From the NCBI RefSeq assembly GCF_009765825.1, contig NZ_LMUR01000018.1:636666-700665 (forward strand): a stretch of DNA of 64,000 bases, in the 5' to 3' direction. Source of the DNA: Granulicella sp. L60 (GTDB lineage Bacteria > Acidobacteriota > Terriglobia > Terriglobales > Acidobacteriaceae). The stretch's first letter is position 1; every line of letters begins with the position of its first letter. Of this stretch, positions 53,523-57,121 are shown piece after piece. The notes under the pieces are model-generated. The model made no database searches. It worked only from the letters and a program-made list of their open reading frames with translations, and was not told where the DNA came from. The position numbers were made by a program, and so were the translations under genes.

Positions 53523-53596
53523 CCCAAGTTGCAGCCGCGCAAAGCCTGTGATACAAACGAAGTATTCCAGTCTGCTTCGGCAGATTTGAATTTCAT

Positions 53597-53694
53597 GCAG
53601 AGTGGTTGAGGGACGAGCCCTTTGACGCCACGACAACCGGACAGAACAAACGCGTACCGGTGTCAACTCTCTCCTGGGAGCCCTATGGGCTGCT
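53597..53694 (+). ncRNA. SAM riboswitch (SAM-I clan)
   Basis: The leader has the S-box core in order: P2 5' strand GTGG (53602), kink-turn GAGGGA (53608), GAGCCC, TTTGACG, P2 3' strand CCAC (53628), GACAACC, a P3 stem closed by CCGG/CCGG (53637-53660), then TGTCAACTCTCTCC, corresponding to the SAM-contact strand, and a short hairpin AGCCCTATGGGCT (53679-53692). P1 can pair GCAG with CTGC. The variant between SAM-I and SAM-IV is not resolved by eye. It precedes the threonine-synthase-like gene, which would be switched by S-adenosylmethionine. Confidence 0.85.
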
Positions 53695-53832
53695 ACAGGG
53701 AACATGAGATTCGGAGCACGCAGTCCAAAATTAAGGCCTGCACCCCGCATTTCACCTTCCCGGCCGTATCTGGCCATCCCCACAGAGAGTAAGCGCAAAG
53801 AGTTCACACCCTTTCCCCTCGGAAAGAGCAAG

Positions 53833-55113
53833 ATGAACTACTCCTGTAGCCGGTATGAGCTGAAGTGTAACGAGTGCAGCAAGCGGTTCGGCAACCAACC
53901 CCTCTCCGCCTGCCCGGACTGCCTCGCCCCCTTAGAAATCGCCTACGACCTCGAAGCCGTACGCGGCATCTTCACCAAAGAAAACATCTCTGCCGGTCCA
54001 GCCAACATCTGGCGTTACGCCGCTCTCCTCCCCATCCCAGACGGCTTCCAGCCCGACCTCCCCGTAGGCTTCACCCCGCTCGTCCGCGCAAAGAACCTCG
54101 GCAAGCGCATCGGCGCGTCCAATCTCTACATCAAGAACGACGCCGTCTGCTTCCCAACCCTCAGCTTCAAAGATCGCGTCGTCTCCGTCGCCCTCGCCAA
54201 CGCGCAGAAGTTCGGCTTTGAGATCGTCGGCTGCTCCTCCACCGGCAACCTCGCCAACTCCGTCGCCGCGCAGGCCGCCCGCCTCGGCCTCAAGGCCACC
54301 ATCCTCGTCCCCGCCGATCTCGAGCCCGCCAAGATCCTCAACACCCTCGTCTACGGCGCGCGCCTCATCCGCATCGACGGCAACTACGACCACGTCAACC
54401 GCCTCTGTACCCAGATCGCCGACGAATACTCCTGGGGCCTCGTCAACGTCAACCTCCGCCCCTACTACGCCGAAGGCTCCAAGACCGTCGGCTACGAGAT
54501 CGCCGAGCAGCTCGGCTGGCGTCTGCCCGATAACGTCGTCGTCCCCATGGCCGGCGGCTCGCTCATCCGCAAGATCCGCAAAGCCTTCAACGAACTCATC
54601 CACCTCGGCCTCGTCGAAGCCAAGCCCGTCCGCTTCTTCGGAGCCCAGGCCACCGGCTGCTCCCCCATCTCCGTCGCAGTCAAATCCGGTGCCGACTTCA
54701 TCGAGCCGCAGCGCCCCAACACCATCGCCCGCTCCCTCGCCATCGGCAACCCCGCCGACGGCCCCGCAGCCTCCAAGATGATCCGCGACACCGGCGGCTG
54801 GGCCGAAGATGTCTCCGACGTCGAGATCGTCTCCGGCATCCAGGAGCTCGCCGAGACCGAAGGCATCTTCACCGAGACCGCAGGCGGCGTCACCACCGCC
54901 GTCACCGCCCGCCTCTACGCCGACGGTCGCATCTCGCCTGACCAGATCACCGTAACCTGCATCACCGGCAACGGCCTCAAGACCACCGACGCCCTCGCCG
55001 GACGCTACCAGCAGGAACGCGCCGTCCGCCCGCGCCTGGCAGACTTCGATGCCTACCTACGCGAGCTCGACGGCATCGCAGAACCAGATCTCGCCACCGC
55101 AGGAGCACGATAA
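53833..55113 (+). CDS. threonine-synthase-like PLP enzyme (putative homocysteine synthase, SAM-controlled)
   Basis: A 426-residue fold-type II PLP enzyme. Start ATG 53833 (MNYSCSRYELKCNECSKRF) has GGAAAGAG upstream; an earlier in-frame ATG at 53704 follows the riboswitch but would add a non-conserved tail. The N-terminal zinc ribbon is C12-C15-C27-C30. The PLP lysine is K113 in TLSFKDRVV and the phosphate loop is CSSTGNLANS. Threonine synthase acts on O-phosphohomoserine; the riboswitch in front and the ThiS carrier behind (stop at 55113, next start at 55114) suggest instead a phosphohomoserine plus sulfide-carrier reaction yielding homocysteine. This role is inferred, not shown. Confidence 0.72.
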   Translation: MNYSCSRYELKCNECSKRFGNQPLSACPDCLAPLEIAYDLEAVRGIFTKENISAGPANIWRYAALLPIPDGFQPDLPVGFTPLVRAKNLGKRIGASNLYIKNDAVCFPTLSFKDRVVSVALANAQKFGFEIVGCSSTGNLANSVAAQAARLGLKATILVPADLEPAKILNTLVYGARLIRIDGNYDHVNRLCTQIADEYSWGLVNVNLRPYYAEGSKTVGYEIAEQLGWRLPDNVVVPMAGGSLIRKIRKAFNELIHLGLVEAKPVRFFGAQATGCSPISVAVKSGADFIEPQRPNTIARSLAIGNPADGPAASKMIRDTGGWAEDVSDVEIVSGIQELAETEGIFTETAGGVTTAVTARLYADGRISPDQITVTCITGNGLKTTDALAGRYQQERAVRPRLADFDAYLRELDGIAEPDLATAGAR

Positions 55114-55395
55114 ATGTCCATCAAAGTCACCCTCCCCACCGCCTTCATCCGCCACACCGATGGCCGCAAGCACTTCGACTCCGCCGCCCACAACCTCCCC
55201 GGCCTCATCGCCGACATCGACCAGACCTTTCCCGCCCTCTCCACCCAGATCAAGGACGAAGAAGGCAAGCTCCGCCGCTTCATCAACATCTACGTCAACG
55301 ACGAAGACATCCGCTTCCTCGGCGGCGAGACCTACGCCTTCCAGGACGGCGACGAGGTCATGCTCATCCCCTCCATCGCCGGCGGATCCCTCTAG
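55114..55395 (+). CDS. ThiS/MoaD-like sulfur carrier protein with masked C-terminal GG
   Basis: A 93-residue beta-grasp protein. Family pattern: KVTLPTAFIRHTDGRKHFD, FINIYVNDEDIRFLGGETYAFQDGDEVMLIPSIAGGSL. Active ThiS/MoaD ends in GG, but this protein ends GGSL, so a protease must remove Ser-Leu before adenylation and thiocarboxylation, as in QbsE and HcyS type carriers. It begins at the base after the PLP enzyme stop (TAAATG), so both are made together. No MoeB-type activator or JAMM protease gene is in the window. Confidence 0.85.
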   Translation: MSIKVTLPTAFIRHTDGRKHFDSAAHNLPGLIADIDQTFPALSTQIKDEEGKLRRFINIYVNDEDIRFLGGETYAFQDGDEVMLIPSIAGGSL

Positions 55396-55507
55396 GCAGT
55401 ATGCGAACATACAGCCTTAGCGGTAAGTGATGGATAGAAAGTATCGTCCTAAGCGTCTGTGAGTGTCATCCTGAGCGGAAGTGATGGGATGGATTGATAT
55501 TGAAATT

Positions 55508-55568
55508 GTCATCCTGAGCGAAGCCTCTCGCAGTTTCATCGCGAGAGGCGAAGTCGAAGGACCTGCGT
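55508..55568. repeat. REP-like repeat unit, GTCATCCTGAGCG family
   Basis: Starts GTCATCCTGAGCGAAGCC, carries the hairpin CCTCTCG / CGAGAGG, and ends GAAGGACCTGCG. A partial copy of the first 13 bases lies 44 bp upstream (55464-55476). Confidence 0.7.
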
Positions 55569-55804
55569 TTCGCTCAACGTGCCAATACCTTCTCCATATC
55601 TCGCACCACATCTGGACCAGTTCCACATCGTGCTATAGGTCGATACCACCTAGCCACTCACTGCGTCGGCAGCAACCAAACACAGCACCACGTTTTGCTG
55701 CCGCGCACACCCTCCCGTTGACGTTCACCGGCAAGCCGTTGCATCCTTCCTGCTACTGCTCCCTCTGCTGCTTCTGTCTCCGCTGTCGCAACGACTGTCC
55801 GTTT

Positions 55805-55842
55805 GTTTGTCATTCCGCAGCGTAGCGGAGGAATCTGCTGTT
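55805..55842. repeat. REP-like repeat, TGTCATTCCGCAGCG family, copy 1
   Basis: TTTGTCATTCCGCAGCG then TAGCGGAGGAATCTGCTG; imperfectly palindromic around AGCGTAGCG. Same as the repeats at 56601 and 56668. Confidence 0.75.
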
Positions 55843-56116
55843 GTGGTTGCTTCTGGCGGTTGCGGTTGCTGCTGCCTTTCCTTTTGCCGTTGTTCTTGCC
55901 GTTGCCCGCTCCCCATCCCCATTCCGAAGCGCAGCGAAGGAATCTCCGCCCCAGCCTCCACTAGATCTATCCAGGCACCCCCCCACAAAAGACCCTTTCC
56001 ACCCCACTCCCATCAAAATCCAGGCACGGAGCAACGAATCCGCCACATCTCCGCTCTTATGTTCTGTAAACATTCGCACGAGTCGCGCCAATTTACTTCA
56101 AGAAAGAAGGATCGAC

Positions 56117-56266
56117 ATGTTTCTCATTCTCGCGGTTGTACTTGTTCTGCTTTGGCTGGGCGGGTTCTTTGTCCTTCACGTCAGCAGCTTCCTCATCCAC
56201 CTGCTGCTCATCTTTGCCGTCATCTCCATCATCATGAACTTCGTCAGCGGCAGACGAGCCGTCTAG
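56117..56266 (+). CDS. small lmo0937-family membrane protein
   Basis: A 49-residue protein, too short for most gene callers. MFLILAVVLVLLWLGGFFVLH and SSFLIHLLLIFAVISIIMNF are two hydrophobic helices separated by HVS, ending SGRRAV, as in the lmo0937/YtxH-like small membrane proteins. AAGGATC precedes the ATG. It is isolated between repeats; the family's function is not established. Confidence 0.7.
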   Translation: MFLILAVVLVLLWLGGFFVLHVSSFLIHLLLIFAVISIIMNFVSGRRAV

Positions 56267-56498
56267 AACCAAACTGCCTTGCTCTCTCTAAATGGCTGCG
56301 TCACATTTGATGTGACGCGGCCATTTCGCCGTCTGGAAATCGATACGCCGAGCACCATAAAACGACAGCGAAATCACCACCGGTTCACCACCAAAAGGCC
56401 TCATCGCACCACACCAGGGCCACTCCGCGCTCACCATCCCGCTCCTCTTACCTCACATTCCAACAGCCTTTGCTTTGTCCTTGCCTCATTCTTGTTTG

Positions 56499-56588
56499 CC
56501 TTTGTTCTTGCTCTTGCATTTGTTCTTGCTCTTGCATTTGTTCTTGTTCTAGCCTTTGTTCTTGTTCTAGCCTTTGTTCTTGCCGTTG
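56499..56588. repeat. five tandem 18-bp units
   Basis: Units begin at 56499, 56517, 56535, 56553 and 56571, with sequences CCTTTGTTCTTGCTCTTG and CATTTGTTCTTGTTCTAG as the extremes. Low-complexity T/C-rich strand; 18 bp is a multiple of three, so frames through it stay open, but no conserved protein results. Confidence 0.9.
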
Positions 56589-56600
56589 TCCGCTCTTTTA

Positions 56601-56704
56601 TTTGTCATTCCGCAGCGCAGCGGAGGAATCTGCGGTTGCCGTTGCTCTTGTTGTTGCTCGCTCTTTTATTTGTCATTCCGCAGCGCAGCGAAGGAATCTG
56701 CTGT
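56601..56704. repeat. two REP-like repeats, TGTCATTCCGCAGCG family, copies 2 and 3
   Basis: TTTGTCATTCCGCAGCGCAGCGGAGGAATCTGC at 56601 and TTTGTCATTCCGCAGCGCAGCGAAGGAATCTGC at 56668, each preceded by CGCTCTTTTA, so the repeated unit is a little longer than the palindromic core. Confidence 0.8.
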
Positions 56705-56849
56705 TCGACATAAAGGGGCAGGGCAACTCCCGCATCCGCCATCAAAACCTGTCAACCCCCTAAGCAACGAATCCCCGCGCCAATCCAGGAGATTCACGTT
56801 GCGTAGAAGTTATCTCCCACCCGCTATACTTGATATAGAGAACAAATTC

Positions 56850-56878
56850 AAAAGCCCCGGTCATCCACCGGGGCTTTT
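56850..56878. terminator. free-standing bidirectional terminator hairpin
   Basis: AAAAGCCCCGGT-CATCC-ACCGGGGCTTTT: a perfect 12-bp stem with A and T runs at its ends, typical of a two-way intrinsic terminator. No gene ends within 580 bp upstream, so it may end a small transcript or the lmo0937-type mRNA. Confidence 0.7.
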
Positions 56879-57067
56879 GTCTCTGCTAAAGAAGGTATTT
56901 TGCCCAAGAAAACCCGTAACTCGTTTCGAAAGAAATATTTACCCGTAACCCGTTTATTTAGAAATATTTACAAGGATCGTTTTTCTTATCTCGTTGCAAA
57001 GAAGTAACTTAGCCTATAGTACCCCTAGGGGGTGGGGTACCCCGAGATAGGCCCGAGTCCGCGCAAA

Positions 57068-57102
57068 GAAAGAGGCCGAACCCTTTGGGTTCGGCCTCTT
57101 TC
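57068..57102 (-). terminator. intrinsic terminator downstream of lon
   Basis: A perfect 16-bp stem (GAAAGAGGCCGAACCC / GGGTTCGGCCTCTTTC) with a 3-nt loop, 20 bp past the lon stop, followed on the minus strand by TTT. Confidence 0.8.
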
Positions 57103-57121
57103 ATATTATGCGGTGGAAAAT

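Follow-up and report, generated by a model that had tools for sequence, protein, structure and literature searches.

Why would an enzyme that scores as a threonine synthase lie under a riboswitch for S-adenosylmethionine (SAM), directly upstream of a sulfur carrier protein? The question is raised by a short operon within a 64,000-nucleotide stretch of the Granulicella sp. L60 genome (contig NZ_LMUR01000018.1, positions 636,666 to 700,665 of the forward strand), hereafter referred to as the window, whose numbering is used throughout. Judged from its sequence, the operon is very probably an acidobacterial member of the MetM/MetO route to homocysteine. This route has already been reported: Hasebe, Adachi, Maruyama and Hamano described in 2024 a methionine route via O-phosphohomoserine in Streptomyces (Appl Environ Microbiol 90:e01247-24). 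Another paper, which cites theirs, describes MetM as a homocysteine synthase that acts on O-phosphohomoserine and, in S. albulus, has a SAM riboswitch upstream (PMC12172450). What the sequence analysis establishes is the riboswitch, the enzyme, the carrier, their association, and the lack of a match to the MetX, MetA and DUF39 routes. The features of the operon are as follows.

53590..53710, + strand: SAM-I (S box) riboswitch aptamer, RF00162 (64.5 bits, gathering threshold 44.4, E-value 1e-12)
53811..53826, + strand: candidate expression platform, a predicted hairpin, CUUUCC-CCUC-GGAAAG, in which the Shine-Dalgarno sequence at 53821-53826 would be hidden
53833..55113, + strand: MetM-like fold-II pyridoxal phosphate (PLP) enzyme, candidate O-phosphohomoserine-dependent homocysteine synthase (PALP 221 bits; TIGR00260 281 bits)
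53866..53922, + strand: N-terminal zinc ribbon with four cysteines (C12, C15, C27, C30) that are invariant or almost invariant across 28 members
54169..54171, + strand: codon of the PLP lysine K113 (TLSFKDRVV), aligned with K61 of Thermus thermophilus ThrC
55114..55395, + strand: ThiS/MoaD-type sulfur carrier (MetO/CysO-like), 93 amino acids (ThiS Pfam 41.3 bits)
55387..55392, + strand: cap, Ser-Leu after Gly-Gly (the carrier ends AGG-SL), read from the sequence

An earlier sequence-only reading had recognized a SAM-I-clan riboswitch, a fold-II PLP enzyme with the motif TLSFKDRVV and a zinc ribbon, and a ThiS/MoaD protein whose gene begins on the very next base and whose sequence ends in GGSL, and all of these descriptions hold. 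The RF00162 match exceeds the gathering threshold, spans the full length of the model, is the sole match in the window at Rfam gathering thresholds and is the single RF00162 match found in the 5.9 Mb genome. The aptamer is kept across 13 aligned leaders of the enzyme family. The hairpin downstream of it was predicted by folding the 36 bases 5' of the start codon plus the codon, without a shuffle control. The Shine-Dalgarno-like motif is mostly paired in 11 of the 13 leaders, the exceptions being G186 and G115; for G179 and G115, the start positions are open to doubt. Folding of the whole leader gives z = -4.6, a value to which the aptamer contributes, and no terminator-like site was found on the + strand between 53400 and 55520. 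Control of the enzyme-carrier pair is most likely by SAM repression, acting on translation provided that the predicted hairpin is real.

The enzyme gene most likely corresponds to 53833-55113 and encodes 426 amino acids. The longest open reading frame starts at 53704, but this start was rejected because it lies inside the aptamer and because the proteins of relatives start close to the position that corresponds to 53833 (MNYSCSRYELKC...). The lysine K113 is invariant in the 28 aligned members. Against the NCBIfam threonine synthase profile TIGR00260, the enzyme scores 281.3 bits (cut-off 167.1) and the ThrC of the same genome scores 274.4 bits; the profile therefore does not separate these two proteins, which are 31% identical. 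The predicted structure of the enzyme (predicted local distance difference test, pLDDT, 87.8) has threonine synthases as its closest folds, with Z-scores of 46.0 for the Arabidopsis structure 2c2b and 37.9 for 1v7c.

The active site is where the enzyme departs from threonine synthase. In the numbering of T. thermophilus ThrC, residues K61, S84, T85, N87, K116, N154, E162, K165 and T317 are kept in the family. However, all 48 full-length members from the phylum, a count that leaves out the partial member G099 and is independent of pattern selection, have the changes T88 to Leu, S155 to Asn, N157 to Arg, R160 to Tyr, N188 to Gly, N191 to Leu and R242 to Ala. Position N188 is Gly or Ser across all 127 family sequences; counts of 127 of 127 are partly built in, since the named loci were chosen by patterns that include changed positions. 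We take K116, S155, R160 and N188 to be the residues that hold the phosphate of O-phosphohomoserine in the substrate-analogue structure 1v7c, and T88 is presumably also counted among the phosphate-binding residues of threonine synthase. In the enzyme studied here, T88, S155, R160 and N188 are replaced by Leu, Asn, Tyr and Gly, respectively, while K116 is kept. These changes, as inferred from the alignment, would alter the holding of the leaving phosphate and of water, which fits a switch from attack by water at the beta carbon to attack by sulfur at the gamma carbon.

The enzyme belongs to a family with a clear edge. In a sample of 197 acidobacterial genomes, relatives with at least 47% identity were found in 49 genomes (one of them partial), while the next best match has 38%. 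Named loci were collected by peptide patterns, and the best 80 include Cyanobacteria, Nitrospinota, Nitrospirae, Armatimonadetes, Planctomycetes, Neomarinimicrobiota and a Desulfuromonadales bin. The closest named match among those listed is from Edaphobacter lichenicola (now Tunturiibacter), with 94% identity. An actinobacterial member, from Nonomuraea (record L184), is 54% identical to the enzyme in the window and has the same order of riboswitch, enzyme and carrier. In a FastTree tree rooted on L008, the 127 family sequences form one clade (local support 0.894), from which ten other threonine-synthase-like proteins stand apart. The Nonomuraea protein, a member of this clade, serves as a proxy here, so that the placement is a comparison with this relative rather than with MetM of S. 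albulus itself.

The arrangement of the operon recurs. A carrier gene lies at most 1.5 kb downstream of the enzyme in 26 of the 49 family loci of the phylum, and RF00162 lies upstream on the same strand in 26 of the 49 (L083 has no upstream sequence), ending 107-390 nucleotides before the enzyme match. The carrier adjoins the enzyme in 16 of 17 loci of the host family; in L049, no carrier was found within the 1,014 nucleotides of downstream sequence available. Among the best 80 named loci, which are pattern-chosen, the carrier adjoins the enzyme in 36 of 37 cyanobacterial ones. The riboswitch is also present 5' of the Nonomuraea gene and in five of 16 other named loci scanned, although the copy in L128 precedes a CysK gene upstream of the enzyme. 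Since the order of riboswitch, enzyme and carrier recurs across the family and beyond the phylum, it is more than a chance arrangement. Some relatives have larger clusters. The L126 operon is composed of a SAM riboswitch, the enzyme, a ThiS-NIL carrier, CysK, CysM, a JAMM protein and MoeB. In L094, the enzyme is followed by the carrier, an SDR protein, CysM, a JAMM protein and then a carrier in one open frame with ThiF, and L090 has MoeB, a desulfurase-like class V aminotransferase, the enzyme and the carrier. In L074, the enzyme has on one side a sulfite/nitrite-reductase-like gene (below cut-offs), a CysG-like or siroheme synthase-like gene and phosphoadenosine phosphosulfate (PAPS) reductase, and on the other side ThrB, ThrC and a homoserine dehydrogenase gene.

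The first base of the carrier gene comes directly after the stop codon of the enzyme (TAA at 55111-55113, ATG at 55114-55116), and the closest solved structure to its product is CysO of Mycobacterium tuberculosis (3dwg, E-value 1e-20). Its Ser-Leu cap would, from the sequence, need to be removed before the carrier is activated. All 16 carriers found in the host family bear 1-28 residues after Gly-Gly (SL, AI, CI, SF, CC, CM and longer tails), compared with one of ten from the other phylum loci. Among the best 80 named loci, residues after Gly-Gly are found in 18 of 21 acidobacterial carriers (two end exactly at Gly-Gly and one is an artefact), in none of 36 cyanobacterial carriers and in 11 of the remaining 15. 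These tails were counted as read, and errors of frame or assembly may account for some of those from draft genomes; the L117 carrier is cut by a wrong start and therefore shows no Gly-Gly, and the start of L092 is placed too far upstream. Within the 197 genomes, a JAMM protein is present in 17 of 17 genomes with a capped carrier, as against five of nine with an exact Gly-Gly end (Fisher p 0.0084, kinship ignored). This comparison is confounded by kinship: among the exact-Gly-Gly genomes, the four that lack JAMM all belong to a single family, and in G025, one of the five that have it, the match is weak (3.2e-7).

The remainder of the genome offers the partners that such a route would use. The genome has ten PALP enzymes. 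An ordinary ThrC (L007) is followed directly by ThrB at L022:9833-12192, with ThrB scoring 239 bits against TIGR00191 (cut-off 168), and a second protein, L008, is over the NCBIfam threonine synthase cut-off with 503 bits against 303. The possibility that the enzyme in the window is the only thrC of the genome is ruled out by these proteins, and it is this ThrC, not the enzyme in the window, that is paired with thrB. A JAMM protease encoded at L020:9299-9796 (PF14464, 79 bits), unlinked to the operon, has the motif EXnHXHX10D, read by eye (FYHSHPDHPAQWSPTD). It is part of a cluster (G000:C6, L020:10734-8982) that also contains a CysM-type enzyme, whose score of 331 bits falls short of the cysM cut-off (394), and a second CysO-like carrier, in which 15 residues follow Gly-Gly; this capped carrier probably serves cysteine. 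Moreover, the genome encodes a MoeB-rhodanese (MoeZ-like) protein at C17:89948 (L026) and four ThiS-family proteins in total. The checks that the sequence-only reading had proposed, namely for a separate thrC, a JAMM protease, a MoeB/ThiF activator and a distinct clade for the PLP enzyme, have thus all turned out in its favour. Its suggestion that the enzyme makes homocysteine was right in kind, as supported by these results, the riboswitch and the independent MetM precedent from Streptomyces (PMC12172450), but it was not new.

MetX, MetA and DUF39 are scarce where the enzyme is found. The best MetX profile match in this genome has 118 bits against a cut-off of 500, a cut-off that 14 control genomes also fail to reach; its E-value is 8e-34, compared with 1e-50 or lower in 54 of the 197 genomes. 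Neither MetA nor DUF39 has a match in the genome at an E-value of 1e-20 or lower. The 49 enzyme-bearing genomes include two with MetX (one partial), two with MetA and none with DUF39, which leaves 45 without any of the three at the limits used. Conversely, 71 of the 148 enzyme-free genomes have MetX, MetA or DUF39 (Fisher p 1.6e-7 for the enzyme versus any of the three, kinship ignored); exclusion of the enzyme with MetA alone (p 0.37) or DUF39 alone (p 0.34) is not significant. The pattern is sharpest within the 22 genomes of the host family, where 17 have the enzyme and four others MetX, with no genome carrying both and a single one lacking both. In two enzyme-bearing genomes, G124 and G143, MetX, MetA and DUF39 are missing, and Cys_Met_Meta_PP has no match at an E-value of 1e-60 or lower.

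The assignment to the MetM/MetO route has to be weighed against several observations that count against it and against other explanations of the operon. The enzyme could be a second threonine synthase with threonine deaminase as a side activity, its carrier serving another pathway. Its TIGR00260 score and its closest folds agree with this, and the Microcystis homologue is reported to have both threonine synthase and deaminase activity in vitro, while its high expression brought no rise in methionine; both findings speak against an exclusive role (PMC12172450). A second threonine synthase is nevertheless improbable given the ThrC-ThrB pair elsewhere, the SAM riboswitch, the changes at T88, N157 and R160 in 48 of 48 members, the mutual exclusion of the enzyme and MetX in the host family, and locus L074, where ThrB and a separate ThrC accompany the enzyme. 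Another reading of the changed phosphate site is a different substrate. A cysteine synthase working with O-phosphoserine and the carrier, in the manner of CysM and CysO, would agree with this altered site and with the likeness of the carrier to CysO, but the genome has its CysM-JAMM-carrier cluster at G000:C6, genes next to the enzyme in relatives encode ThrB, homoserine dehydrogenase and aspartate kinase, and control is by a SAM riboswitch; we give this explanation hardly any weight.

Absence of MetX alone was rejected as proof of the route, since 77 of the 148 enzyme-free genomes likewise lack MetX, MetA and DUF39. The genome of Granulicella sp. L60 itself has five strong Cys_Met_Meta_PP (PF01053) matches, one over the cystathionine gamma-lyase cut-off, and these include a tandem pair at G000:C12 (L014 and L012) that resembles cystathionine gamma-synthase and beta-lyase, although below cut-offs. 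A plant-like gamma-synthase using O-phosphohomoserine, together with the beta-lyase, could therefore make homocysteine while the operon does something else. We consider this very improbable, since, of eleven same-genus genomes sampled, nine have just two PF01053 enzymes and the other two have one and four, against five here, the family genomes G124 and G143 have none at the limit given above, and the only RF00162 match of the genome sits on the operon in the window. The JAMM protease, furthermore, is present in all 22 sampled genomes of the host family, including five without the enzyme, and so is not a specific partner, even though the enzyme is enriched in genomes with JAMM (Fisher p 1.1e-12, kinship ignored). 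Linkage of enzyme and carrier is also not universal: 23 of the 49 loci have no carrier within 1.5 kb downstream, with the downstream sequence being short in L049 (1,014 nucleotides) and L081 (703), and L098 (G022) having none in 1,014 nucleotides. These loci would suit an O-phosphohomoserine sulfhydrylase that is able to use free sulfide, the carrier being helpful or needed only at low sulfide. Some of them, L071, L072 and L074, have sulfite/nitrite-reductase-like, siroheme synthase-like or PAPS reductase genes as neighbours (as does L068, which has a ThiS gene further downstream). The use of sodium sulfide to mimic MetM activity, in which an unidentified peak was seen (PMC12172450), would also be in keeping with such an enzyme. 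Set against this is the close adjoining of the carrier in the host family and in the cyanobacterial loci, and we regard sulfide use by the enzyme in the window as unlikely.

If the operon belongs to the MetM/MetO route, the following sequence of events can be proposed. At low SAM, the leader would expose the ribosome-binding site and the enzyme-carrier pair would be made. Ser-Leu would be trimmed by a JAMM protease, probably that of the G000:C6 cluster next to CysM, and the Gly-Gly of the carrier would be exposed; the MoeZ-like E1-rhodanese would adenylate the C-terminus of the carrier and load it with sulfur as a thiocarboxylate. The enzyme would bind O-phosphohomoserine made by ThrB and eliminate phosphate, and the sulfur of the carrier would then attack at the gamma carbon, whereas in threonine synthase it is water that attacks, at the beta carbon. 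Hydrolysis would free homocysteine from the carrier, perhaps with the same JAMM protease at work, and methionine synthase would convert it to methionine, while the ordinary ThrC would compete for the same O-phosphohomoserine. Uncapping, loading, gamma attack and release are steps that we infer.

Comparison with known systems places the operon nearest to MetM/MetO. In the Streptomyces system of Hasebe and colleagues, MetO is said to supply the sulfur to MetM. Features of that system found here are the adjoining carrier, the upstream SAM riboswitch and the lack of an acyl-homoserine or DUF39 match. In S. albulus the likeness comprises the upstream SAM riboswitch and, as proposed here, the O-phosphohomoserine substrate; MetM homologues are also described in cyanobacteria, with a metO-like carrier gene adjoining the Microcystis thrC, whose product is reported to be 51.6% identical to MetM, and the SAM riboswitch reportedly being absent in Microcystis (PMC12172450). 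The carrier in the window differs by its GGSL end from that of Nonomuraea and from the 36 named cyanobacterial carriers, which end at Gly-Gly. Features of the QbsE and HcyS type, namely residues after Gly-Gly (here Ser-Leu) and a JAMM protease in the genome with EXnHXHX10D, are present as well. In QbsE, two residues after Gly-Gly are removed by a JAMM protease; the likeness lies in these two residues, while the pathway of QbsE leads to a siderophore and not to methionine. The HcyS/HcyD/HcyF system of Wolinella, associated with Krishnamoorthy and Begley (2011), reportedly uses a carrier thiocarboxylate as the sulfur source for homocysteine, with a JAMM protease and a capped carrier, and its enzyme is said to be a fold-I enzyme acting on O-acetylhomoserine, whereas a fold-II enzyme and, most likely, O-phosphohomoserine are involved here. 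The CysM/CysO/Mec system of M. tuberculosis shares the type of carrier, and the genome has a cluster of that kind too. However, the partner of the carrier in the window is a different, threonine-synthase-like PLP enzyme under SAM control, whose product is likely homocysteine and not cysteine, and the CysM-type enzyme lies at C6. With threonine synthases (TIGR00260) the enzyme has in common the fold, the PLP lysine and the N-terminal ribbon, which is also found in the ThrC of the same genome, but it differs in the phosphate-site residues and falls in a separate clade.

In two of the relatives, the carriers are fused after Gly-Gly to a NIL domain (PF09383), at L126:5257-5772 and L128:6627-7142, in SAM-riboswitch operons with a MetM-like enzyme. 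Methionine transport and the DUF39 homocysteine route are other known settings of NIL domains. With the capped carriers and these fusions, which distinguish them from the Nonomuraea and cyanobacterial members compared here, the present members look like a variant of the route. Another group of loci, L068, L071, L072, L074 and L075, has MetM-like genes without a carrier within 1.5 kb and near sulfite/nitrite-reductase-like genes; CysG-like genes are found near L068, L072 and L074, PAPS reductase near L072 and L074, and thrB near L071 and L074, and in L068 a ThiS gene lies about 2.6 kb downstream of the enzyme. By their gene neighbourhoods, these five loci are candidates for a sulfide-using form of the enzyme. 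We tentatively suggest, as a possibility that may well not hold, that two acidobacterial carrier branches, one for cysteine at C6 and one for homocysteine in the window, draw on a single JAMM protease and a single E1, with the caps and the riboswitch dividing the carrier-bound sulfur between them, and that related lineages have instead a NIL domain after Gly-Gly (L126 and L128), possibly methionine-sensing, or no linked carrier and use of sulfide.

A few further observations concern the surroundings of the operon and the ThrC branch. The intergenic stretch 3' of the carrier (55396-57120) contains direct repeats of 29-68 nucleotides, of the CATTCCGCAGCG.AGCGGAGGAATCTGC family, in four copies, and an 18-nucleotide tandem repeat near 56486-56588. 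The ThrC of the genome (L022:9833-11281) resembles plant and bacterial threonine synthases to nearly the same degree, with 274 bits to the plant structure 1e5x and 278 bits to the bacterial structure 1uim. Plant ThrC is activated by SAM, and by analogy SAM might act on both O-phosphohomoserine branches in this genome.

The findings bear on how such genes are annotated and on how acidobacteria make homocysteine. TIGR00260 scores the enzyme as high as true ThrC, so that an annotation resting on this profile will call both of them threonine synthase, and a wrong 'threonine synthase' label is probably common. A simple sequence test for the enzyme family is offered by the invariant changes in its active site. 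The capped carrier provides a directly testable protease step. A likely MetM-type enzyme is present in 49 of the 197 sampled acidobacterial genomes and, among the best 80 named loci, in many cyanobacteria. Price et al. (2018) stated that at least one route to homocysteine was yet to be found (PMC5764234), and the MetM route may fill part of this gap.

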